Source of the DNA: Crocinitomicaceae bacterium
GTDB lineage: Bacteria > Bacteroidota > Bacteroidia > Flavobacteriales_G > Salibacteraceae
NCBI GenBank assembly: GCA_002705995.1
Contig: PAJI01000013.1
Location: 123,449-172,468 of the forward strand
Reading direction: 5' to 3'
Length of the DNA stretch: 49,020 bases
This document shows positions 3,384-49,020 of the stretch, one piece after another. The notes under the pieces were generated by a model, which ran no database searches, was not told the DNA's origin, and saw only the letters and a program-made list of their open reading frames with translations. Position 1 is the stretch's first letter, and every line of letters starts with the position of its first letter. The position numbers and the translations under genes were made by a program.

Positions 3384-3823
3384 TCGAGAAAATAAAAGGT
3401 GATAGCCCTGATGTATACCGGTTGATAGCACCGTATGCAATGGATAGGAAATACATTCGAATGAATGACAATGTTATTACTACAAGCCCAAGTGATACAT
3501 GGTACCTATTACTAGGTGATAAAAATGAGCTATTAGCATTTTACGCTGTATTTGAACACAAGAATAATAGCATTAAAGCTCACTCCTATTTACCTGTAAA
3601 CATTGATTGGAAAAAAGGTCTAAATATCCTATTAAGTGAAATTGTTTCCGATTTCAAATCATCTGATCACAATAGACTTTATACTTTCGGGAAAGATGAG
3701 TACCTCAGCATTTACAAGAAATTAGGATTTAAAATTTCAAACCGAAGAAAAGAATGGCACACACTAGAATTGGTAAAACGTACAAGGAAAAAAACGTCTA
3801 CGAAGCAGCCAAAGAAAGAATAA
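3380..3823 (+). CDS. GNAT-like acetyltransferase-fold protein, 147 aa
   Basis: Resembles a small GNAT-fold protein: a central strand with a typical 'WYLLLGDKNELLAFYAVFEHKNNSIKAHSYLP' pattern (about residues 35-72) and the C-terminal 'YKKLGFKI' element (about 116-123) that closes many GNAT domains. The tail is strongly basic (KRTRKKTSTKQPKKE). The acetyl-CoA loop (R/QxxGxG/A) is not clear, so catalytic activity is uncertain. The phage Mu Mom DNA-modification protein has a GNAT-related fold, and together with the PP-loop and ParB-like genes next door this suggests a DNA-modification role, which is inference. It overlaps the helicase by 4 bp and IbrA by 70 bp. Confidence 0.6.
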   Translation: MIEKIKGDSPDVYRLIAPYAMDRKYIRMNDNVITTSPSDTWYLLLGDKNELLAFYAVFEHKNNSIKAHSYLPVNIDWKKGLNILLSEIVSDFKSSDHNRLYTFGKDEYLSIYKKLGFKISNRRKEWHTLELVKRTRKKTSTKQPKKE

Positions 3824-5070
3824 AGTTTCTTTTCAATGAGTTCGAACAGATCGTTGTTTCATTTTCAGGAGGTAAAGACAGTGGTATTGTTCTGAATATG
3901 GTTCTTGAGTATGCTAATGATAACTCTATGCTTGACAAGGTGTGTGTGTATCATATGGATTACGAAGCCCAATATCAGGCAACTACAGATTTTGTTACTG
4001 AAACTTTCAAAAGTCTACCCAAACAAGTCTCAAAATATTGGGTATGTCTTCCAATAAAAGCTCAATGTAGTACATCAATGTTCCAAACGTATTGGCAACC
4101 TTGGAAGAAAGAAGACCGGGATAAGTGGTGTAGAGAACTACCAGAGAACTGTATAAATGAAGATAACTTCCCATTTGATTTTGATTATGAGATTTCTGAT
4201 TATGACTTTAATCTCAAATTCGCTAAAGCTTTATCAAAGGAAAAACACACATGTTTCCTAATAGGTATTAGAACTCAAGAAAGTCTTCATAGATATAAAG
4301 CAGTAACAAAATTAGAGGACAACAACACTTATAAAGGAATTAACTACACAACTACAATAAATTCAAATTGTATCAATGCTTATCCAATATATGATTGGCT
4401 TGTAGATGATGTATGGATTGCATATGGTCGTTTTAATTGGAAGTATAACAATATTTATAACCTTATGCATTTAGCAGGCCTTACACCTCATCAAATGAGA
4501 GTGGCAAGTCCATTTAATGATGCTGCACAAGAAAGCTTGAAACTATATAAAGCTTTAGACCCTAATAATTGGGGTAAATTGATTGGTCGCGTTAATGGAG
4601 TGAACTTCACAGGTCTTTATGGTGGTACCACTGCAATGGGATGGAATAGTATTTCTAAACCTGATCATTTTACGTGGAAGGAGTACATGTATTTTCTGCT
4701 TGAAACATTACCTGAAGATATACGTGATAACTACCTCACTAAGCTAAAAACATCTTTTGCATATTGGTTAGAAAAAGGTGGGGCTCTTCCTGTTGAAACA
4801 TTCAATGAATTACCATCTGATTTAGAATTTGAAGATTTGGGAAAGCCTCAGACAAAGAGGAAATACACTCAAGAATATAGAGTAGTAAAATTCAAAGAAT
4901 ATCTAGATGAGATTGAAATTAAGAATCCAAACCTTCTACCTACCTATAAAAGAATGTGCATAGCTATTATGAAAAACGATACCAGTTGTAAAACTCTTGG
5001 ATTCGGACAAACAAAAGCTGAGCTGCAAAGAAGAAAAGATATTATGACAAAATACAAATCACTATTATGA
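3754..5070 (+). CDS. ibrA: IbrA-like PAPS-reductase-family PP-loop protein (DUF3440), 438 aa
   Basis: A member of the PAPS-reductase/PP-loop family with the DUF3440 extension, like IbrA of E. coli prophages. The N-terminus has the family signature NVYEAAKERI (about 14-23) followed by the PP-loop SFSGGKDSG (36-44), which binds the pyrophosphate of ATP or PAPS. The C-terminal half carries the family's long helical extension. Family proteins of this size are usual, so it looks complete. The start at 3754 lies inside the previous gene (70-bp overlap) but gives the expected short lead before NVYEAA. It overlaps the ParB-like ibrB gene by 4 bp, the usual ibrAB pairing. DndC, the PP-loop enzyme of DNA phosphorothioation, is a distant relative, so sulfur-based DNA modification is one possible role. 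Confidence 0.85.
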   Translation: MAHTRIGKTYKEKNVYEAAKERIKFLFNEFEQIVVSFSGGKDSGIVLNMVLEYANDNSMLDKVCVYHMDYEAQYQATTDFVTETFKSLPKQVSKYWVCLPIKAQCSTSMFQTYWQPWKKEDRDKWCRELPENCINEDNFPFDFDYEISDYDFNLKFAKALSKEKHTCFLIGIRTQESLHRYKAVTKLEDNNTYKGINYTTTINSNCINAYPIYDWLVDDVWIAYGRFNWKYNNIYNLMHLAGLTPHQMRVASPFNDAAQESLKLYKALDPNNWGKLIGRVNGVNFTGLYGGTTAMGWNSISKPDHFTWKEYMYFLLETLPEDIRDNYLTKLKTSFAYWLEKGGALPVETFNELPSDLEFEDLGKPQTKRKYTQEYRVVKFKEYLDEIEIKNPNLLPTYKRMCIAIMKNDTSCKTLGFGQTKAELQRRKDIMTKYKSLL

Positions 5071-9002: not shown

Positions 9003-9265
9003 TGAGGATAATCACACCGGCACAAGCTACAGTGAAACTAAAAGGATTCATTGAACGTGTAGATAGAATCAAAGCAGATTCATACAAGAGAAAGGCTTCT
9101 AAAACATACGACAAGAAAACGATACTGTGGGAAATGAGTAGAGTTGGTTTATGGGCTTCAATAGCAAAGTTTAGTAAGAATTCAGACAATGCACAAAATG
9201 TAATAGATAGAGTGAAAAATGCTCACCTATTTGTCTCAAATATGATTTTCGATGGAGAGCTTTGA
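9002..9265 (+). CDS. hypothetical basic helical protein, 87 aa
   Basis: ATG 9002 overlaps the stop of the membrane-protein gene by one base, so it is preferred over an upstream ATG (8921) that would force a long overlap and poor N-terminal sequence. The protein is basic and helical (AQATVKLKGFIERVDRIKADSYKRK...). No known domain. Its last 14 bp overlap the start of the helicase-methyltransferase gene, so it is translated just ahead of it and may be an accessory factor. Confidence 0.65.
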   Translation: MRIITPAQATVKLKGFIERVDRIKADSYKRKASKTYDKKTILWEMSRVGLWASIAKFSKNSDNAQNVIDRVKNAHLFVSNMIFDGEL

Positions 9266-11756
9266 TAAAAACATACTCTATAAACAGTTTCTTGAATCTA
9301 AGATTATCACAACCCAAAACTATGGGTTTGTTCCTGATACATTACACTCCTCATTATATCCACATCAAAAAGATGTTGTCACGTGGTCATTAGAAGGAGG
9401 TAGACGAGCTATATTTTGCAGCTTTGGGCTAGGTAAAACAGCCATGCAACTAGAAATAGGAAGACAGGTTGTTAAGTATACTAAAAAGCACTTCCTAATA
9501 GGAATACCTCTTGGTGTACTTGGTGAATTTAAAGATGATGCCAAAGATCTGTTTGGTATGAACATTCACTATGTAAGGGATATGGATGATGTGTTCATGA
9601 TAAATGAACCTTCAATTCTGATAAGTAATTACGAAAGGATCCGTGAAGGTAAATTTACACCTGATATTTTCGGAGGTGTTTCCTTTGATGAAGGAGATGC
9701 AATCAGAAATCTTGATACAAAGACTTCTGACTATATCATAAATGAAATGTCAAGAATTCCTTTGCGATTTATTGCTACTGCTACTCCAGCACCAAATGAA
9801 TACACTGAAATTCTAAATTATGCTCATTTCCTAGGTGTGTGTGATAGAGGTCAGGCATTGACTAGGTTTTTTCAACGTGATAGTAAAAAGGCAGGTAATC
9901 TCACCTTATACCCTCATAAAGAACATGAATTTTGGTTATGGGTTAGAAGTTGGGCAATATTCATAGAATATCCTTCTGATTTAGGTTATTCAGATGAAGG
10001 TTATAAACTACCTGATTTCAAGATACACTATCATCAAATTGAATTAAAAGATAGGAAGCTGATTGTTGATCGAGATGATCAGATTAAAATGTTTGCGGAT
10101 GCTAGTAAAGGCCTTTCTGAAGCTGCTAGAGAAAAGAGAGAAAGCTTGTTTGCTCGATGTGTTAAGTCTGTTGAAATAGTAAATAAACATCAGAATGATC
10201 ATTTTATCCTCTGGCATGATTTAGAAGATGAAAGAAAAGTTATTCAAAACTTACTGCCTGGTGTTAATACTGTTTATGGTTCTCAGAAGAATGAGCAAAA
10301 AGAGGAGTTACTAAATCAATTCAAGCACGGTAAATACCAATATCTAGCAACTAAACCTAGTATTGCTGGTGCAGGTTGTAACTTTCAGAAACATTGTCAC
10401 AATGTTGTGTTTGTTGGAATAGGATATAAGTTCAAAGATTTTATTCAAGCAATTCACAGAGTACTTCGATTTGGTCAAATTTTTAACGTTAACATTCATC
10501 TTGTTTATACTGATGCTGAGGTTGAGGTCCTAAAGAAATTAGAATCTAAATGGACCAAGCATAAAGAAATGATTGCTGAAATGACCAACCTTATGCGTAA
10601 ATATGGATTATCACAGCGTGATGCTATCAATGATCTAAAGAGAACTATACAAATAGATCGTGAAGAGGTTTCCGGAGATAAATTCACTTGCATTCATAAT
10701 GATGCTGTTGAAGAGGTTAAAAATATGTCGGATAACAGCTTAGATATGATCTGTTCGTCTATTCCATTTTCTGATCAGTATGAATATTGTGAAAGCTACA
10801 GAGACTTTGGCCACAATAATGGTAATGAAGGGTTCTTCAAGCAAATGGACTACTTAACTCCAGAGCTTTTGAGAATAACTAAACCCGGTAGAGTTGCTGC
10901 AATACATGTGAAGGATAGGATCCAGTACAGTTATCAAAATGGAGTTGGTTTCACATCATTAATAGATTTCTCTGGTTTAACGGTTCAACATTTTGTTAAG
11001 CATGGTTGGCACTTATTAGGTAAACACATTATCACAACAGATGTAGTAAGTGAGAATAACCAAACATATCGATTAGGATGGTCAGAACAATGTAAAGACG
11101 GTACCAAGATGGGTGCCGGTTCTCCTGAATACTTATTGATATTCAGAAAGCCTCCAACTGATATGAGTAATGCATATGCTGATGATCGTGTAGTAAAAGA
11201 TAAGAAGCATTATTCAAGGGGTAAATGGCAATTGGATGCACATGCTCACTGGCATTCTAATGGTAATAGATTATTGACACCTGAAGAATTGAGAAAGATG
11301 AACCTTTCACAAATCGGTAAATGGTGGAAACAATATTGTCAGGAAAATCCCTATGATTACGATACACATGTTAAGCTGTGTGAAACTCTTGATGAAATAG
11401 GTAAGCTACCTTCTAAGTTTATGGCCATACCTCCTCCTAGTAAAAGTGATGGTGTTTGGACTGATATAAACCGTATGCACACTCTTAACACAAGTCAAAC
11501 TAATAGGAAGCAAGAAAAACATGTATGTCCATTGCAGTTTGATATTGTTGACCGGTCAATTATTAGATATAGCAATGAAGGAGATACTGTTTATGATCCT
11601 TTCGGTGGTGTTATGACAGTTCCTTTCAGATGTATCAAATTAAATCGAATTGGAATAGCTACAGAGCTTAATAAAGGGTATTGGAAAGATGGTGTTAACT
11701 ACTGCAGGGAAGCAGAGTACAAAAACTCAATACCCACTCTATTTGACACATTTTGA
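9252..11756 (+). CDS. SNF2-type helicase / DNA methyltransferase fusion, 834 aa
   Basis: A two-enzyme polypeptide. The N-terminal half is a superfamily-2 SNF2-like ATPase: YPHQKDVV (about 36-43), Walker A SFGLGKT (57-63), DEGD (146-149), ATATPAP (about 175-181) and motif VI QAIHRVLRFGQ (399-409). The C-terminal half is an amino-methyltransferase (N6-adenine or N4-cytosine class) with permuted order: catalytic motif IV as SSIPF (502-506) rather than the usual (D/S)PP(Y/F), KPGRVAAIHVKDRI around 558-571, and the SAM-binding motif I DPFGG near the end (782-786). This arrangement is known in phages and mobile elements. It probably modifies phage DNA while tracking along it; target unknown. It overlaps the 87-aa gene by 14 bp. 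Confidence 0.9.
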   Translation: MESFDKNILYKQFLESKIITTQNYGFVPDTLHSSLYPHQKDVVTWSLEGGRRAIFCSFGLGKTAMQLEIGRQVVKYTKKHFLIGIPLGVLGEFKDDAKDLFGMNIHYVRDMDDVFMINEPSILISNYERIREGKFTPDIFGGVSFDEGDAIRNLDTKTSDYIINEMSRIPLRFIATATPAPNEYTEILNYAHFLGVCDRGQALTRFFQRDSKKAGNLTLYPHKEHEFWLWVRSWAIFIEYPSDLGYSDEGYKLPDFKIHYHQIELKDRKLIVDRDDQIKMFADASKGLSEAAREKRESLFARCVKSVEIVNKHQNDHFILWHDLEDERKVIQNLLPGVNTVYGSQKNEQKEELLNQFKHGKYQYLATKPSIAGAGCNFQKHCHNVVFVGIGYKFKDFIQAIHRVLRFGQIFNVNIHLVYTDAEVEVLKKLESKWTKHKEMIAEMTNLMRKYGLSQRDAINDLKRTIQIDREEVSGDKFTCIHNDAVEEVKNMSDNSLDMICSSIPFSDQYEYCESYRDFGHNNGNEGFFKQMDYLTPELLRITKPGRVAAIHVKDRIQYSYQNGVGFTSLIDFSGLTVQHFVKHGWHLLGKHIITTDVVSENNQTYRLGWSEQCKDGTKMGAGSPEYLLIFRKPPTDMSNAYADDRVVKDKKHYSRGKWQLDAHAHWHSNGNRLLTPEELRKMNLSQIGKWWKQYCQENPYDYDTHVKLCETLDEIGKLPSKFMAIPPPSKSDGVWTDINRMHTLNTSQTNRKQEKHVCPLQFDIVDRSIIRYSNEGDTVYDPFGGVMTVPFRCIKLNRIGIATELNKGYWKDGVNYCREAEYKNSIPTLFDTF

Positions 11757-11783: not shown

Positions 11784-11867
11784 ATGGAATGTGTCATTCA
11801 CGGAGGTCTAGACGAAAACATTGTGGATGAAAAACAACGAGCCTTGCAACTAACGTGCCTAGTATAA
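11784..11867 (+). pseudogene. 27-codon ORF cut off inside the first attC-like element
   Basis: ATG GAA TGT GTC ... codes for MECVIHGGLDENIVDEKQRA and a few more residues, then reaches TAA (11865-11867) in the 5' arm of the stem-loop. The amino-acid pattern looks like the start of a genuine soluble protein. Either an ordinary gene was truncated when the cassette-like array arrived, or it is a remnant cassette ORF, since cassette ORFs often stop inside attC. I cannot find the missing remainder downstream of the array. Confidence 0.4.
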
Positions 11868-11976
11868 AAGCTGGCGGGGAATGAACGGCAAACACTTTCC
11901 CGAAAGCTCAAAACTTACTTAAACATCCGAAGCGGTCAAAAAGACACTGCAACCCCGCTTGATTTTATACTGTGTT
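11852..11976 (+). repeat. attC-like stem-loop 1
   Basis: AAC (11852-11854), a 6-nt spacer, AGTATAAAA (11861-11869) pairing with TTTTATACT (11963-11971), inner CGGGG (11875-11879) pairing with CCCCG (11953-11957), a long imperfect interior, then GTTG (11974-11977). The order AAC / A-rich stem / GC stem / loop / stem / GTTG is shared with two further elements at about 12196-12288 and 15403-15499. It is more GC-rich than its surroundings. Confidence 0.7.
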
Positions 11977-11992
11977 GTGGTGCGTTTTTATT

Positions 11993-12193
11993 ATGGGAAA
12001 AGGATTTGCAATTTTAATTTGGGACGATTGGGGTTCAGGATTGGTCAGAATAAACCCACGACTGTTAGACAATGGGCACACTGACATATATGGCAACCCA
12101 AACAACTGGTTTCCCTACAAAACGGAAGAACAGAAGCAAGAAATGATTAAAGAATTGGTTGGTGATAGTAAATACTATGTTGTGATTGACTAA
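11993..12193 (+). CDS. cassette ORF: hypothetical protein, 66 aa
   Basis: A single small gene between attC-like elements 1 and 2. ATG 11993 lies 16 bp after the GTTG of element 1 and the stop is just before the complementary block of element 2, as expected for a one-gene integron-type cassette. The protein is tryptophan-rich (GKGFAILIWDDWGSGLVRINP...) with a small beta-like N-terminus and an acidic/basic C-terminal helix (EEQKQEMIKELV). No family recognised. The flanking decamers GTTGTGGTGC (11974-11983) and GCACCACAAC (12196-12205) are perfect reverse complements. Confidence 0.7.
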   Translation: MGKGFAILIWDDWGSGLVRINPRLLDNGHTDIYGNPNNWFPYKTEEQKQEMIKELVGDSKYYVVID

Positions 12194-12195
12194 AT

Positions 12196-12288
12196 GCACC
12201 ACAACGGCCTTGATAAAAAATCGGGCGCAAACCTGAACCTTGGAAACTGAGCGCAAACGCTGCCTGCGCCTGTTTTTTATCTTTTGTT
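12196..12288 (+). repeat. attC-like stem-loop 2
   Basis: GCACCACAAC (12196-12205), a 6-nt spacer, GATAAAAAA (12212-12220) pairing with TTTTTTATC (12273-12281), GGCGCA (12224-12229) pairing with TGCGCC (12265-12270), a 4-nt spacer and GTTG (12286-12289). The loop contains a small AGCG-CAAA-CGCT hairpin (about 12250-12261). The 5' decamer is the exact reverse complement of the start of the preceding cassette, which assigns this element to the 66-aa cassette. Confidence 0.75.
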
Positions 12289-12309
12289 GGCAGCAGTTAA
12301 TTCAAGATT

Positions 12310-13146
12310 ATGGAAACATTGAAATTACATCACATTGCACCTTACTTGCCTTATAAGTTAAAGTGCCTAACAGTTGATAAAGGTGAAATAGTAATATCTG
12401 AGCTTAACGCTGCATATTCTGACAACTCCTATACGTTTATGAATATCGTAGAATCTTATAAAGGATTTGAAGACATTAAACCATTATTGAAACCCATGAG
12501 TGCTTTTGATAATGGTTATGTAGCAGAATTAGCTAGATATGTATCTACTATTGACGATAAGTACACTATTGAAAGTGCTTGGACAATGATTGAGGAACGA
12601 ATATCAAAGCCTTTGAATATGCCTTACGTTATTGTTAAGAGATTACTCCGATGGAAATTTGATGTATTTGGATTAATTGATAAAGGTCTTGCTTTGAATT
12701 CAGACTTATTTGTTAATGATCATATTAAAGAGGAAGATTCCGTCTACATTAGGTCAGACAATTACCCTAATACTATCGATCAATTCAAAGCAATTGTTTC
12801 ACCGTATCAGTTTATTGGTAATGAAGTTCGGCCTCAAGATCCTGACGAACACAAGTATGATGAGTGTATAGATAAAACACAATCTAATTCAGATATGGTT
12901 GAAAAGAAAACATGGCCAGAATTCAGGAGTACTGGTCTAGTTTTGATTATTAATCAATTATTACATGTTTTTGGTTGGTCCATTGTTTTTGAAATAGAAA
13001 ATGATGAAGTGAGAAGTGTTTATCCTGCAAGGGTTAAATTTAGAGGGTTTGATAACAAGACTACTTCTTACAATTATCAAAAAGTTAGCGAATACCTAAA
13101 AGAACATGCAAAAGAGCTGCATAATGAAGTAAAAGATCACATTTAA
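12310..13146 (+). CDS. conserved phage hypothetical protein, 278 aa
   Basis: Begins 'LKLHHIAPYLPYKLKCLT', an opening I associate with uncharacterised proteins of Bacteroidetes phages and prophages. A central region (about 85-190) is mixed and charged. The C-terminal part (about 200-275: STGLVLIINQLLHVFGWSIVFEIENDEVRSVYPARVKFRGF) looks like a compact alpha/beta domain. No catalytic motif, signal or membrane segment. It starts 20 bp after attC-like element 2, so it is the first gene of a large cassette-like block; the AT-rich coding style matches the rest of the phage. Function unknown. Confidence 0.75.
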   Translation: METLKLHHIAPYLPYKLKCLTVDKGEIVISELNAAYSDNSYTFMNIVESYKGFEDIKPLLKPMSAFDNGYVAELARYVSTIDDKYTIESAWTMIEERISKPLNMPYVIVKRLLRWKFDVFGLIDKGLALNSDLFVNDHIKEEDSVYIRSDNYPNTIDQFKAIVSPYQFIGNEVRPQDPDEHKYDECIDKTQSNSDMVEKKTWPEFRSTGLVLIINQLLHVFGWSIVFEIENDEVRSVYPARVKFRGFDNKTTSYNYQKVSEYLKEHAKELHNEVKDHI

Positions 13147-13161
13147 ATGTAATTTCATCTT

Positions 13162-13536
13162 ATGAAATATGAATTGATCCACAATGAAAAACAAGAAGGT
13201 GATATATCCGGAGTAGATTTATTACCAATTGAAACTTTCGTGTCTGTTGATATAAAAGAATATGCTCAACATTTTGTGTTTTCTGAATTAAGAGAAGGTA
13301 GCATTTGGACCTACACAATTGAACTTTTAATTTCTGGCCGAAATTGCAAATCAATAGTTAAGGTAACTAACTTTACCCATCCATTGGGAAATGACGAGTC
13401 ATATAGGACTTACGGGGGTGGTACTCAATTAAACTGGATAATCGATGTAGAGGATGATATGATATATTACTTGCAAAATTTAGCAGCTGAAGCTTTGAAT
13501 TATTTCATAAGTGAAACAATGCCAGCCAGTTTTTAA
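13162..13536 (+). CDS. hypothetical protein, 124 aa
   Basis: Follows the 278-aa gene after 15 bp. It is a soluble, beta-rich-looking protein (LPIETFVSVDIKEYAQHFVFSELREGSIWTYTIELLISGRN...) with a conserved-looking 'GGGTQLNWIIDVEDDMIYYLQNLAAEALNYFI' C-terminal segment. It has no assignable family and is part of the same small-gene operon inside the cassette-like block. Confidence 0.65.
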   Translation: MKYELIHNEKQEGDISGVDLLPIETFVSVDIKEYAQHFVFSELREGSIWTYTIELLISGRNCKSIVKVTNFTHPLGNDESYRTYGGGTQLNWIIDVEDDMIYYLQNLAAEALNYFISETMPASF

Positions 13537-13664
13537 AAGCAAAGGAGAATAAAACAGAATCATATCAAAAAATTGATTATATCTATAAGAAGTTGAAATA
13601 CTTGGCAGATTTTTAGATTACTGGGGCACATCAAACGTTAATTTCCTTGGAAAAAGGAGGTGAA
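13537..13664 (+). other. 128-bp gap with an AUG-less open frame
   Basis: One frame from about 13534 to 13615 reads KAKENKTESYQKIDYIYKKL and a few more residues before a stop, which looks coding, but has no ATG, GTG or TTG in a sensible position. It may be a gene remnant or a frameshifted tail of 13162-13536. The gap ends with a strong Shine-Dalgarno (AAAAAGGAGGTGAA, 13651-13664) for the next small gene, rare in this window. Confidence 0.35.
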
Positions 13665-13817
13665 ATGGTTCTAGCAAGTCAAAACCCGCAAGAGTCAAAA
13701 GAAATTTTCAAGCGATTTACAGGCCGTGAAATTGATCTTATTCCAGATGGTGAAAGTGTTGGTTTCATTGTTAAGTTGATTCCAGATAAAAAATGTACAC
13801 AATCGAAAAGCAAATAG
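13665..13817 (+). CDS. very small hypothetical protein, 50 aa
   Basis: ATG 13665 is preceded by AAAAAGGAGGTGAA, one of the best Shine-Dalgarno sequences in the window, in a phage that otherwise relies on AT-rich leaders. The product is MVLASQNPQESKEIFKRFTG then a beta-like segment (REIDLIPDGESVGFIVKLIP) and a basic tail. Its last 25 bp overlap the start of the next small ORF. No function assignable; the ribosome site and codon pattern make it credible as a gene. Confidence 0.55.
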   Translation: MVLASQNPQESKEIFKRFTGREIDLIPDGESVGFIVKLIPDKKCTQSKSK

Positions 13818-13966
13818 CTGATAAGTGGCATTTCGAAGCTTACGAATATGAACTCGAAATTGCTATAGCTAAGTGCAACGAATTGTTTGAAGCATCGCCC
13901 GGACGTTACCGCGTTTTCTCTACTAGAACCAAGAAAAATGTATACAATGTAACCAACGACTTTTAA
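13793..13966 (+). CDS. very small hypothetical protein, 57 aa
   Basis: Overlaps the previous small gene by 25 bp in another frame. The product (MYTIEKQIADKWHFEAYEYE...) is a helical N-terminal half followed by a basic, strand-like segment (PGRYRVFSTRTKKNVYNVTNDF). The pattern of amphipathic helix and ordered C-terminus looks coding rather than random. It ends in TAA before a long AT-rich gap leading to leader module 4. Function unknown. Confidence 0.55.
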   Translation: MYTIEKQIADKWHFEAYEYELEIAIAKCNELFEASPGRYRVFSTRTKKNVYNVTNDF

Positions 13967-14062
13967 ACGTTTCTGAATTCTGCATTGATGCTTTACAATT
14001 AACAGACTTCATTAAACAGGTGACTATTATTTGGATTTTTTTTTCAAAAAACACATCCATTA

Positions 14063-14130
14063 TACACATAATTGTGTAATTTAGCGACACAATTAACAAC
14101 TCTCAACTATAACTCTTAATTATTATTCTT
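14063..14130 (+). promoter_or_regulatory. leader module 4: TACACA palindrome plus CTCAACTAT repeats
   Basis: Palindrome TACACA-TAAT-TGTGTA (14063-14078), then a weak -7-like TAATTTAG (14078-14085), CTCTCAACTATAA (14100-14112) and CTCTTAATTAT (about 14113-14123), ATG 14131. No good -33 box lies at the right distance. The arrangement matches modules 2 and 6 (TTGTGTA core) with slightly diverged repeats. Confidence 0.55.
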
Positions 14131-14352
14131 ATGAAATCTCACTCAAGAGCTAACATTCTTGATGTTATTCAAAAAGTTCAAGAAGCTCAAATTCAAAACG
14201 AAGGTTTATCTCCTCATTTCAATAGAGAAAAATACTGTGGAACTTGTTTGTCACATGATAAAGCAGCTCACCCTGAAACAGATAAGTGCTTTCATTGTGA
14301 TTCTGATAATTGGATAAGTCAACAAGAGTATAATTCAAGATTAGCTAAGTAA
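14131..14352 (+). CDS. small zinc-ribbon-like protein, 73 aa
   Basis: Contains two cysteine knuckles, C-G-T-C at about residues 29-32 and C-F-H-C at about 50-53, with a linker of 17 residues. This is a typical zinc-ribbon layout for a DNA-, RNA- or protein-binding module. The N-terminal 25 residues form a helix (SRANILDVIQKVQEAQIQ). The start is set by leader module 4, and the last base of its stop overlaps the ATG of the next gene. It may be a small phage transcription or nucleic-acid-binding factor; the family is not identified. Confidence 0.7.
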   Translation: MKSHSRANILDVIQKVQEAQIQNEGLSPHFNREKYCGTCLSHDKAAHPETDKCFHCDSDNWISQQEYNSRLAK

Positions 14353-14702
14353 TGGGACAACCAAAAAACGGTGAACTGTGGCTTTTAGAGTTTAAAAGCG
14401 ATGGTGCTAAAACAGCTATGTTCTACAACAATGGACATTGGTATTCACGTGATAATCATTCTACAGCATGGGATGAGCAATTTGAACTTGTTGAAAAGCT
14501 TAAGGATGCTCCAAATAACAAACCAAAAGACAAAGAAGTCTGGCTAGTAGAAAATAAAGGAAGGATGGCATTTGCTGTTTACAACGCCAATTCAAAAAGA
14601 TTATACACAACATTCACTAAAGATGGAGATCTATCATTCGAGCTTAGTAAAACTACTAGTCCCGTTAAACTACTTTTTAAAAGCTTGGAGGATGTGATAT
14701 GA
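14352..14702 (+). CDS. hypothetical protein, 116 aa, with internal duplication
   Basis: The two halves look like copies of one small module: 'PKNGELWLLEFKSDGAKTAMFYNNGHWYSRD' (about 3-33) and 'PKDKEVWLVENKGRMAFAVYNANSKRLYTTF' (about 59-89) share the P-K-x-x-E-(L/V)-W-L-(L/V)-E core and spacing. It is beta-rich. It overlaps the previous gene by 1 bp and the next by 4 bp. A duplicated small beta module suggests a binding protein; function unknown. Confidence 0.7.
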   Translation: MGQPKNGELWLLEFKSDGAKTAMFYNNGHWYSRDNHSTAWDEQFELVEKLKDAPNNKPKDKEVWLVENKGRMAFAVYNANSKRLYTTFTKDGDLSFELSKTTSPVKLLFKSLEDVI

Positions 14703-14986
14703 TGATTTTTAAATTTGATATCAATCTAAAAGTATACTCATCTAATGTTTTGCCGGTTCCATCTGCAGATGATACAAAATATAGTGTAGATGTGGTAATA
14801 GTAGATGAAGATAATATGTCTGGTCTAGCATTTTATTCATTTTCTAAAGGTGAATGGAAATTTCATACAGATACAATGTGTGATGATCATGAAAATGGTA
14901 AACCAAAACAATTCTGGTGGTACTATCCCCCTATCCTTAAAACAACTGGAAAAGCTCAGTTGATTGTAAATCCAAAACATGTTTAA
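14699..14986 (+). CDS. hypothetical protein, 95 aa
   Basis: Coupled by a 4-bp overlap to the preceding gene and an 8-bp overlap to the following one. It is beta-rich, with 'LAFYSFSKGEWKFHTDTMCDDH' and 'PKQFWWYYPPIL' segments, aromatic like its upstream neighbour's modules. No domain recognised. It belongs to the cassette-block small-gene operon. Confidence 0.65.
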   Translation: MMIFKFDINLKVYSSNVLPVPSADDTKYSVDVVIVDEDNMSGLAFYSFSKGEWKFHTDTMCDDHENGKPKQFWWYYPPILKTTGKAQLIVNPKHV

Positions 14987-15209
14987 AATGGATCATTTGA
15001 CTATAAAGATAAATGGTATTGAGCTAGAGGTTGGTTACAAATTCATAACTGGCACACCGAATAGTGAATGGACTGGTGATGGAGCTACGCCAGGTATTCC
15101 GGATAGCGTAGAAATACAAGAAGTGTACCTACAAGACGAAGACATAACAAGCTTAATTAACAAAGAATCATTTTCCTCAATTGAGGAAGAGGTTTTGAAA
15201 ATGCATTGA
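14979..15209 (+). CDS. hypothetical protein, 76 aa
   Basis: Starts at 14979 by an 8-bp overlap; MDHLTIKINGIEL from ATG 14988 is an equally possible start. The protein (LTIKINGIELEVGYKFITGTP...PDSVEIQEVYLQDEDITSLI) resembles small beta-rich Bacteroidetes phage proteins with an IxVNGxxLxV opening and a 'VEIxxVxLxxxDIT' middle. Function unknown. It ends directly at the next start codon (0-bp gap). Confidence 0.65.
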   Translation: MFKMDHLTIKINGIELEVGYKFITGTPNSEWTGDGATPGIPDSVEIQEVYLQDEDITSLINKESFSSIEEEVLKMH

Positions 15210-15398
15210 ATGATGGATAAAGAATCTCAATTTGTAGAACTTATGCGAACTTCAAACAGAATAGCAGTTGCTAAAAACCACTGCAAAATTAATCCTGTAT
15301 TCTCAGATAAAATTAAACCATTTAAAAATCGTACATACAATAGATTGACTCAAATGCAAGAGTCAATAGGCGTGCAAGTAAATGAGTTGTATTGGTAG
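15210..15398 (+). CDS. hypothetical protein, 62 aa
   Basis: Begins immediately after the previous stop. It is a small basic helical protein (KESQFVELMRTSNRIAVAKNHCKINP...RTYNRLTQMQESIGVQVNELYW). Its stop lies 4 bp before the TGCTGCCAAC block of attC-like element 3, so it is the last gene of the large cassette-like block. No family recognised. Confidence 0.6.
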   Translation: MMDKESQFVELMRTSNRIAVAKNHCKINPVFSDKIKPFKNRTYNRLTQMQESIGVQVNELYW

Positions 15399-15402
15399 TT
15401 AT

Positions 15403-15499
15403 TGCTGCCAACCTGTTCTAATAAACACATGTGGCGCAACTCACGCCACTTTAATAGGATGCAAAACGACAACTTGCGCCGTTGGGTTTATTTATTGTT
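15403..15499 (+). repeat. attC-like stem-loop 3
   Basis: TGCTGCCAAC (15403-15412), a 7-nt spacer, AATAAAC (15420-15426) pairing with GTTTATT (15486-15492), GGCGCAA (15433-15439) pairing with TTGCGCC (15474-15480), a 4-nt spacer and GTTG (15497-15500). A nested hairpin GTGGCG-CAACTCA-CGCCAC lies at 15431-15449. The 5' decamer is a perfect reverse complement of GTTGGCAGCA at 12286-12295, the start of the block that begins after element 2, 3.1 kb upstream. Confidence 0.75.
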
Positions 15500-15518
15500 G
15501 GGATTTCGTTTTTGAGCG

Positions 15519-15746
15519 ATGGGATTAAATGGACAGCAAGTAATTAGAGGATTGAAAAGAGATAGCGACAACTATGTAAAGCACTATCTCGGTAATATTT
15601 GCCTACACAACAATGAAGGCGACAATTTAGGGCAAATTAGCTATAGAGTATTTGACAACTTACTAAAGAAAGGCGAAATTAAACGAGTAGCCTTATCTAA
15701 GGAATTTTGGTCTGATGGATACTATCAACTGAGCGTGGGCAAATGA
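15519..15746 (+). CDS. cassette ORF: hypothetical protein, 75 aa
   Basis: A single small gene following attC-like element 3. The protein (GLNGQQVIRGLKRDSDNYVKHYLGNICLHNNEGDNLGQISYRVFDNLLKKGEIKR...) looks like a small winged-helix-type or beta-hairpin protein, with 'VFDNLLKKGEIK' resembling the end of a wHTH, but no family is secure. It is bounded by GTTGGGATT (15497-15505) and AATGCCAAC (15746-15754), reverse complements at 8 of 9 positions, as expected for its own cassette ends. Confidence 0.7.
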   Translation: MGLNGQQVIRGLKRDSDNYVKHYLGNICLHNNEGDNLGQISYRVFDNLLKKGEIKRVALSKEFWSDGYYQLSVGK

Positions 15747-15808
15747 ATGCCAACGGTTTAGCTATGCTATAGCACCATTATAACTCACAGATAAACAGAC
15801 ATGCTAAA
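15746..15808 (+). repeat. degenerate attC-like element 4
   Basis: AATGCCAAC (15746-15754) is followed by TTTAGC (15758-15763) that can pair with GCTAAA (15803-15808). The expected 3' GTTG after a 4-nt spacer is absent, so this looks like the decayed or recombined right end of the cassette array. Confidence 0.45.
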
Positions 15809-17787: not shown

Positions 17788-19437
17788 TTGTTTTTATTCG
17801 AAACTAAATTACATCGGGCTAAACGTGAGTTAGCGAGTAGGGTTAGTAATAAATTCTACCAAAAGGATCCTATTGCTTGGTACTGTGATAAGTTCGGAGA
17901 GGATATTAAGAATCTAAAATGGTCTGAATATCATTTTTACGATGGCCATGTATGGGATGGTACTCCGGATCCTTTCTATCAAACTTTCGTTTCATTGGCT
18001 GAAAAGCGTTGGGTAGGTATTGAATCTGCAACCTCAACCGGTAAAACCTATATGCTTCCACGTATTCTAATGTGGTTTCTAGATGTTTTCCCAGAAGCTT
18101 CTGTAATTACTACAGCTCCTAAAGAAGGACAGCTAAAAAATATCCTTTGGAAAGAAATAGGAAGAGCTTATCCAAAATTCAATAGAATACGTCCACATTC
18201 AGAACTGCTTACATTACGTCTTAAAGTTGACACCAGAAGAGCTAAAGAGCAATTTGAAGATGAAGTCGTTTACAATCTTAATGTAGGGCATGAAGCTATA
18301 GGATTTGTTTCGGGTGTAGGAGCTGGTGAAGAATCAGCAGTTAAAATGCAAGGTTTTCATGCGGAAAACATGCTATTTGTTCTTGATGAAATGGCTGGTA
18401 TTCATCCAGCAGTATTAAAAGCGATTATTAATACATCCACTGGTTCAAATAACCTTGTAATTGGAATGGGTAACCCGGATAGTCAGATTGATCCATTACA
18501 TGAGTTCTGTGATTTAGATAAAACGGACCATATCATTATTAGTGGTTATGATCATCCTAATATTGTCAATAAGGAAAAAAGGGAAATTATACCTGGAGCT
18601 GTTAGTCAACAATCAATTGATTTAAGAGAATCAGAGTATGGAAAAGAAAGCCCATTTTTCAAGTCTAGGGTTAGAGGGATAGCGCCAACTCAAGGAACTG
18701 ATTCTTTATTTAGATTAGAATGGCTAGAAAAATGCCTCATTGATGATGAAAAATTCCATGGCAAAAAACGTAGATATGGTTATGATGCATTAGCCATTGA
18801 TGTAGCACAATCAGAAGCAGGTGATAAAGCAAGTTACGGTGCCGGAAAATCAAATGAGATTTTGTATTTAGATAGTTTTCCATGTCCTAATGCATTGCAT
18901 CTTGCATTTAACTTTATGATGGAAAACCATGATCTAGATGCTAAAGAATACCATAATTATGATGTTATAAAGGTTAAAGACTTTAATCTGTACTCACACA
19001 ATATAGGTGTTGATTCTGTTGGTGTAGGTGCTGCAACTGTTGACGGTTTCTTAGAAAAGGGTGTTGAGGTAATTGGTTTAAATGGAGGCCAATTAGAAGA
19101 TGCTATTCCTTTGGATAATGAGGAAAAGCCTTTGTATCAATTTAACAGCCTAAGAGCACAGATGTATTGGCAATTGAGAATTGATCTTGAAAGAAATGAA
19201 GTAATAGTCAATTTACTTTCTCATCCAAATTACATTAACATCATTAAGCAACTGAAAAAAGAGCTTGTTCAAATTAAGTACCATATTAAAAGCGGTAAGA
19301 TTGGTATTGAATCAAAAGATGATATCAAAAAACGTTTAGGAGGTAAATCACCTGATCTATTGGACGCTTTTGTGTATTGGAATTGGATGCGTCATAACTT
19401 CTACGATAATTCAGGAATAGGTATTGTTTCGGCTTAA
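17788..19437 (+). CDS. terL: terminase large subunit, 549 aa
   Basis: The ATP-driven DNA-packaging motor with C-terminal nuclease. The ATPase domain has Walker A ESATSTGKT (79-87) and Walker B LFVLDEM (196-202, catalytic E after D). 'IGMGNP' (about 225-230) is the coupling-motif region. The RNase-H-like nuclease begins at about residue 330, with D338 in 'LAIDVAQSEAGDK', a second acidic cluster at 'IGVDSVGVG' (about 407-415), and a final acidic 'SPDLLDAFVYW' near 528-538. The frame opens at TTG 17788 and no other start precedes Walker A, so TTG is used. Length is normal for the family. It is the first gene of the late operon, right behind a strong hairpin. Confidence 0.93.
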   Translation: MFLFETKLHRAKRELASRVSNKFYQKDPIAWYCDKFGEDIKNLKWSEYHFYDGHVWDGTPDPFYQTFVSLAEKRWVGIESATSTGKTYMLPRILMWFLDVFPEASVITTAPKEGQLKNILWKEIGRAYPKFNRIRPHSELLTLRLKVDTRRAKEQFEDEVVYNLNVGHEAIGFVSGVGAGEESAVKMQGFHAENMLFVLDEMAGIHPAVLKAIINTSTGSNNLVIGMGNPDSQIDPLHEFCDLDKTDHIIISGYDHPNIVNKEKREIIPGAVSQQSIDLRESEYGKESPFFKSRVRGIAPTQGTDSLFRLEWLEKCLIDDEKFHGKKRRYGYDALAIDVAQSEAGDKASYGAGKSNEILYLDSFPCPNALHLAFNFMMENHDLDAKEYHNYDVIKVKDFNLYSHNIGVDSVGVGAATVDGFLEKGVEVIGLNGGQLEDAIPLDNEEKPLYQFNSLRAQMYWQLRIDLERNEVIVNLLSHPNYINIIKQLKKELVQIKYHIKSGKIGIESKDDIKKRLGGKSPDLLDAFVYWNWMRHNFYDNSGIGIVSA

Positions 19438-48928: not shown

Positions 48929-48941
48929 AAGGGTGTAAAAG

Positions 48942-49020
48942 TGGAGCCGGAGGGATTCGAACCCTCGTCCAAACAGGGAAACCCCATGCCTTCTACAAGC
49001 TTAGTCTCCGTAAATTTTTC
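48942..49020 (-). ncRNA. ssrA: tmRNA (ssrA), 3' end, cut by window edge
   Basis: Read on the minus strand the sequence contains GGAGACTAAGCTTGTAGAAG, then GGACGAGGGTTCGAATCCCTC (tRNA-like T-arm with GTTCGAATC) and the acceptor end CGGCTCCA, the standard 3' half of tmRNA. The discriminator A is at 48942, then C and T-T, so CCA is not fully encoded, acceptable in Bacteroidetes. The 5' half, tag ORF and acceptor 5' strand lie beyond the window. tmRNA rescues stalled ribosomes. Its 3' end is a common integration site, so this marks the right end (attR or attL) of the prophage. Confidence 0.85.

Follow-up and report, generated by a model that had tools for sequence, protein, structure and literature searches.

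How does a prophage without an integrase come to carry genes set between integron-type recombination sites? The question is raised by a 49,020-nucleotide stretch of DNA, here called the window (assembly GCA_002705995.1, contig PAJI01000013.1, positions 123,449 to 172,468), which is part of the 4.49-Mb draft genome of a Crocinitomicaceae bacterium and holds a prophage with terminase, portal, head protease and helicase genes, as judged from PHROGs. Three hairpins sit between the helicase/DNA methyltransferase gene of this prophage and its terminase gene, and a first-pass annotation, made from the sequence alone, took them for attC-type sites that delimit integron-like gene cassettes. The results described here support a phage-borne cluster of attC sites lacking integron integrases (CALIN). 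We give a probability of about 0.9 to the reading that the three hairpins are integron-type attC sites, that the DNA between them consists of cassettes of an integrase-less prophage, and that these cassettes come from a phage-specific pool.

Three attC-type sites and the cassettes between them

The hairpins are present where they were first described and, with their R boxes included, occupy 11845-11983, 12196-12295 and 15403-15506 on the forward strand. All three have the order AAC, 6-7 nt, A-rich stem, GC stem, loop, matching stems, 2-4 nt, GTTG, with inverted R'' and R' boxes (ending in AAC and starting with GTT, respectively) around a second paired region, as is characteristic of attC sites. 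In site 1 the R'' box TGCAACTAAC is followed by a 6-nt spacer, the stem AGTATAAAA/TTTTATACT with its GC stem, a 2-nt spacer and the R' box GTTGTGGTGC; the spacers are 6/4 in site 2 and 7/4 in site 3. The three sites fall within 3.7 kb with no integron integrase nearby, and two or more attC sites spread over a few kb in such a setting constitute a CALIN. The fold z-scores of the hairpins range from -0.7 to -2.0, so that stability alone is not unusual; the signal resides in the architecture rather than in folding energy.

The decisive claim of the first-pass annotation was that each cassette starts with bases complementary to those that precede its own downstream hairpin, as in integron cassettes, and we find this complementarity as it was described. 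Cassette 1 (11974..12205, forward strand, 232 bp) starts with GTTGTGGTGC (11974), which pairs with its own R'', GCACCACAAC (12196-12205), at 10/10 positions; the outer ends of the 3.1-kb cassette 2 (12286..15412, forward strand), i.e. GTTGGCAGCA (12286) and the R'' TGCTGCCAAC (15403-15412), likewise pair at 10/10, and those of cassette 3 (15497..15754, forward strand), GTTGGGATT (15497) and AATGCCAAC (15746-15754), at 8/9. Chance was assessed by a score that combines 7-nt end complementarity with both flanking stems, using a custom finder whose thresholds were set by eye and then checked on shuffled sequence. The first two segments score 25 and 24, against a maximum of 22 over 120 dinucleotide-shuffled strands (0/120 reach the window scores), and their end complementarity is thus beyond chance; cassette 3 is not recovered at the 6/7 threshold. 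The interpretation as attC-bounded cassettes therefore stands for the first two and is weaker for the third, which is at best a truncated cassette because its ends have one mismatch and no intact attC lies behind it. Two and a half mobile gene cassettes are delimited by the three sites.

As first noted, cassettes 1 and 3 carry one small open reading frame (ORF) each. The 66-aa ORF of cassette 1 (11993..12193, forward strand) has no Pfam, PHROG or PADLOC match, but its protein has a 59% identical relative in the viral contig L011, within a 233-bp cassette (4292-4524). The ends of the L011 cassette, GTTATAAAAC / GTTTTATAAC, differ from those of the window cassette, GTTGTGGTGC / GCACCACAAC, in sequence and retain the pairing. 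The 75-aa ORF of cassette 3 (15519..15746, forward strand) has a sub-threshold Pfam match only, and no relative of it was found apart from the same prophage. In PHROGs the first ORF of cassette 2 is the only cassette ORF with a match; in PADLOC the cassette ORFs gave none, and against phage records nothing beyond a 37% match in an Aeromonas phage; scanning the genome contigs with the 66-aa and 130-aa cassette proteins, the latter being the N-terminal part of that first ORF, revealed no relatives.

This first ORF of cassette 2 (278 aa; 12310..13146, forward strand) is 82% identical over residues 1-130 to a cassette gene of the viral contig L014, and its residues 191-276 resemble the phage family phrog_16397 (PHROGs). 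The L014 homologue of the 130-aa N terminus is an ordinary single-gene 0.5-kb cassette (GTTAGCTAC...GTAGCTAAC), one of two in an array whose attCs are clear and full. From its sequence, the 278-aa ORF looks like a fusion of an L014-type cassette gene with another phage domain. About seven more ORFs follow before the matching R'' of cassette 2, and on the simplest reading a cassette of ~0.5 kb would have grown through the addition of about 2.7 kb of phage DNA. Upstream of cassette 1, a 27-aa ORF (11785..11868, forward strand) runs into site 1; it has no relative among the loci compared and may be the remaining 5' end of a gene that was interrupted.

A covariance model built without the window

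The first-pass annotation had named covariance models as a means of checking the hairpins. A model built from the three window elements (R1) is too narrow for searching: it found no attC-type elements besides these three in the whole 4.49-Mb draft genome, none beyond them in 42 genomes of the order, and only them in 396 genomes of the phylum, with only 12 candidates per genome scored. We therefore rely on a second model, R2, made from 54 attCs of other phages with the window left out, in which eight stem pairs are each preserved through 12-29 double-sided changes. Over the window R2 has a sole match, element 1 (E=1.5e-8). With filters off over a 6-kb stretch, elements 1, 3 and 2 are the top three places at exact coordinates, with E values of 1.8e-9, 0.1 and 0.3, respectively; the evidence of conserved, covarying structure is accordingly strong for element 1 and weak for elements 2 and 3 taken singly. 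R2 gave no match in 20 control regions. It also detects attCs in arrays on Bacteroidia chromosomes (E as low as 2e-15), and scores attCs of canonical IntI integrons weakly (E 0.002-0.5).

Related phage arrays beside a tyrosine recombinase

A pattern search led to a 54-kb viral contig, L067, in which about eleven cassettes in a row, one of them with the core GTTGTGGTGC identical to that of the window, are followed by a gene for a 267-aa tyrosine recombinase. Relatives with 55-100% identity to this recombinase are encoded by 99 viral contigs, up to 362 kb long; 80 of these were kept for array analysis. A chained array lies upstream of the recombinase gene in 35/50 kept contigs having >2.5 kb on that side, where usually 44-74 nt separate it from the start codon, and downstream in 1/61; the array finder responded to 1/150 shuffled sequences and to 25/30 real loci. 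Together the arrays yield 260 cassettes (median 308 bp) with 178 distinct attCs, in which the box sequence after GTTA/GTTG is variable, as it is in the window, and their neighbours include phage-type genes (helicase, RNA ligase/tail-fibre attachment, ThyX). The phage recombinases, of 260-270 aa, are related to IntI and lack the IntI-specific insert. A tyrosine recombinase with such an insert had been named as a search target along with the initial reading; the enzyme found beside arrays of other phages is without the insert, and there is none in the host. More distant relatives (37%), the integrases of the phages Freya and Ingeline, are without arrays.

Gain and loss of cassettes among related phages had also been put forward as a test, and are seen exactly at G|TT in the contigs L231, L242 and L241. 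L231 and L242 are 99.7-99.9% identical around a site where L242 carries about 1 kb extra, the breakpoint being exactly the GTT of the R' box, and L241 has three cassettes in common with each of them. The difference between L231 and L242 is the footprint of cassette excision or insertion.

Some features of these contigs stand apart. An identical 22-nt attC hairpin core, ACGGTCGTTTTAATGCCGTTTT, is present in 40 viral contigs (L182-L219 plus L067 and L072) from many metagenomes. At L067 57-8626 (identical in L220/L221), the array and recombinase (7.2 kb) lie inside a phage RNase R-like gene (phrog_13933) and split it between positions 542 and 554 of the profile; two independent viral contigs, 54 and 168 kb long, have this arrangement. 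The RNase R-like gene was considered as a general target and rejected, the insertion being seen only in the L067 phage, in two contigs. At L067 10672-12811 a homing endonuclease gene splits an RNA ligase gene (halves of phrog_548 around phrog_314).

Gene polarity relative to attC

Read along their genes, chromosomal cassettes have a short 5' spacer and a longer 3' spacer, whereas phage cassettes are reversed, with the longer spacer 5' and the shorter 3' in 196/199 attCs; genes of phage arrays lie on the integrase strand by 148:12. The phage arrangement is shown by the window (6/2, 6/4, 7/4), L011, L014, L067 and the Polaribacter phage P12002L, and the strand of the R2 matches gives the same verdict for the window and for chromosomal arrays. 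Since attC polarity is directed away from the integrase in all arrays examined, it is the genes, not the attCs, that are turned, and through their reversed orientation relative to the usual attC polarity they are aligned with phage transcription. Because the window matches the phage arrays in this arrangement, its cassettes are assigned, on sequence features, to the phage pool.

Sister integrons on Bacteroidia chromosomes

A profile of the integrase family (A6) divides the matches in 396 genomes of the class into a Xer-like group near 1e-45 and matches of at least 385 bits, ~155 among the matches listed. Phage_int_SAM_4 and Phage_integrase domains are present in the A6 proteins tested, which reach 152.6-211.3 bits against the TIGR02249 cut-off of 265; the insert specific to IntI, the additional domain of canonical integron integrases, is absent from them in the alignment, and in a tree they stand apart both from Xer and from the 100%-supported IntI clade. 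The 27 Bacteroidia loci compared (L132-L158) encode integrases of 350-400 aa that lack the IntI insert and carry an extra domain of ~90 aa at the N terminus. An attI-like site (TATA...GTTR) no more than about 110 nt from the integrase stop codon is present in 19/27 loci; most of these sites are close to the consensus GGGTATAAACAA|GTTAGC and lie 91-106 nt downstream of that stop. In most loci with enough downstream sequence, the attI-like GTT and the next 7 nt pair with an R'' 0.3-3.8 kb further on, as expected of an attI with a first cassette behind it. The loci L136, L137, L146, L155 and L156 show arrays, and loci such as L146, L155 and L156 can be described as putative complete, non-canonical integrons with co-oriented cassettes after an attI-like site. 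L156 comes from a genome (G008) of the window host's own family; an integrase with attI in cis, which makes an integron complete, is thus present in the family and absent from the host genome. For 12/20 top integrases examined the contig ends within about 3.3 kb of the 3' side of the gene, as expected if repetitive arrays break assemblies.

Weighing the alternatives

Several observations weigh against the interpretation of the hairpins as a phage-borne CALIN. The host genome has no TIGR02249 match over cut-off and no L067-type integrase, which agrees with the initial remark that no intI is visible. The R' boxes (GTTGTGG, GTTGGCA, GTTGGGA) do not conform to GTTRRRY, the fit being loose only, as had been conceded at the outset. 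Elements 2 and 3 are weak alone with R2, cassette 2 is unusually long and holds about nine ORFs rather than one gene, no recognisable outer attC follows cassette 3, and no turnover was seen in the window's own phage, the collections having yielded no close relative of it.

The most serious rival is that the system is a canonical IntI integron, i.e. that a host IntI captured the cassettes and the phage took up a fragment of a chromosomal integron. Canonical arrays share the geometry, IntI1 recombined 5/6 phage attCs tested (Qi et al. 2023, PMC9892861), and true IntIs over the TIGR02249 cut-off are common elsewhere in the phylum, with 105/396 genomes. Nearly all of these lie outside the window's class, however, in which only one was seen (G078), and none is present in the host genome. 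Combined with the weak R2 scores of canonical attCs relative to phage and Bacteroidia attCs, and with a gene polarity in the window that agrees with phage rather than chromosomal arrays, this makes a canonical origin unlikely.

We regard as still less probable, and indeed improbable, that the hairpins between the small phage genes are intrinsic transcription terminators and that the complementarity of the cassette ends is coincidental. GC stems are followed by T-rich stretches (e.g. GCGCCTGTTTTTTATC in element 2), and attC sites have been reported to act as weak terminators (PMC9892861). A terminator scan, however, gives no more sites than shuffled sequence and none at elements 1 and 2, and terminators would leave unexplained the self-complementary ends, the compensated ends in L011 and the match to phage integron attCs. 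Mobilization by a Y1 transposase, with the hairpins as ends of IS200/IS605- or REP/RAYT-like elements, would account for short imperfect hairpins beside a fixed tetranucleotide, GTTG, but does not predict that the first 7-10 bases of each segment pair with those just before its own downstream hairpin; the relatives' arrays are tied to a tyrosine recombinase and G|TT junctions, and R1 finds no copies elsewhere in the genome. We give this last possibility hardly any weight.

Mechanism and relation to known systems

We consider it likely that phages and Bacteroidia have in common a separate integron lineage, whose integrase would function without the insert, and that the phage pool, with inverted genes read by phage transcription towards the integrase, includes the window cassettes as stranded members. 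This lineage, judging from sequence comparison, is probably the mobilizing system. As in integrons, an IntI-related phage recombinase would act on folded attC DNA, cutting the R' box at G|TT and so excising or inserting cassettes, including at the window sites; cutting there is why the first bases of each cassette would pair with its own R''. The window cassettes were probably acquired in a cell that supplied the recombinase, or from a co-infecting phage that did so, and would afterwards have been left in a prophage lacking an integrase. They are probably stranded, because the host genome is without such an integrase.

That phages carry CALINs and integrons is already known, P12002L included (Qi et al. 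2023, PMC9892861). Like the cassettes of the window, those of that study are small, bounded by attCs and carried by phages that lack an integrase, and the P12002L attC hairpin has ACGGTCGTTTTAATGCCGTTTT, as do L014 and L067. The study differs in defining sites with standard tools and in invoking bacterial IntI; it notes divergent attC directions in P12002L, but contains no insert-less phage recombinase, upstream arrays or polarity reversal. With canonical IntI (TIGR02249) integrons the present systems have in common a cassette array, attCs with complementary R''/R', an attI, a tyrosine recombinase and the G|TT junction; their recombinases differ in lacking the insert, in falling below the TIGR02249 cut-off and in forming a separate branch, and the attI of chromosomal Bacteroidia integrons lies 3' of the integrase gene. 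Archaeal integrons also have attI immediately downstream of intI and many CALINs, but their IntIs retain the additional domain (Ghaly et al. 2022, PMC9668308), which is described as necessary for IntI, and the phage and Bacteroidia recombinases do not. In the literature found (preprints and most subscription papers lay outside the search) there was no description of an insert-less integrase or of the polarity reversal, and the wider context, i.e. phage arrays upstream of an insert-less recombinase, turnover at G|TT and sister integrons in Bacteroidia, appears undescribed there.

Integrons are viewed mainly as bacterial gene-capture platforms, and a special domain is taken to define their integrase. 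In dozens of phage contigs, most of them large and some >300 kb, the integrase next to the cassette arrays does not have this domain, and an integron-like system of their own appears to let phages trade genes. Two questions become testable: is the additional domain needed for recombination of folded attCs, and do phages exchange small genes through cassettes? The IntegronFinder 2.0 survey reported one complete integron in Bacteroidetes (PMC9024848), against the ~155 integrase matches given above, a contrast suggesting that a widespread Bacteroidia system escapes standard integron detection.

Prophage and host context

The left neighbour of the cassettes is the helicase/DNA methyltransferase gene (9252..11756, forward strand, PHROGs); to the right, the terminase large subunit gene (17788..19437, forward strand, PHROGs) is followed by those for portal and head protease. 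A XerD-like gene on another host contig (C26) and the other sub-threshold TIGR02249 matches in the host were considered as integrase candidates and rejected: they are not IntI and group with Xer, and the family profile gives them values of about 1e-49. The prophage is also present in IMG/VR as a 71-kb viral contig. The 3' part of a transfer-messenger RNA gene at the right edge of the window (48939-49020, reverse strand) is a possible prophage attachment site, and a phosphoadenosine phosphosulfate reductase-like gene (phrog_2302, E 4.6e-97) lies within the prophage at window positions 3754-5070.

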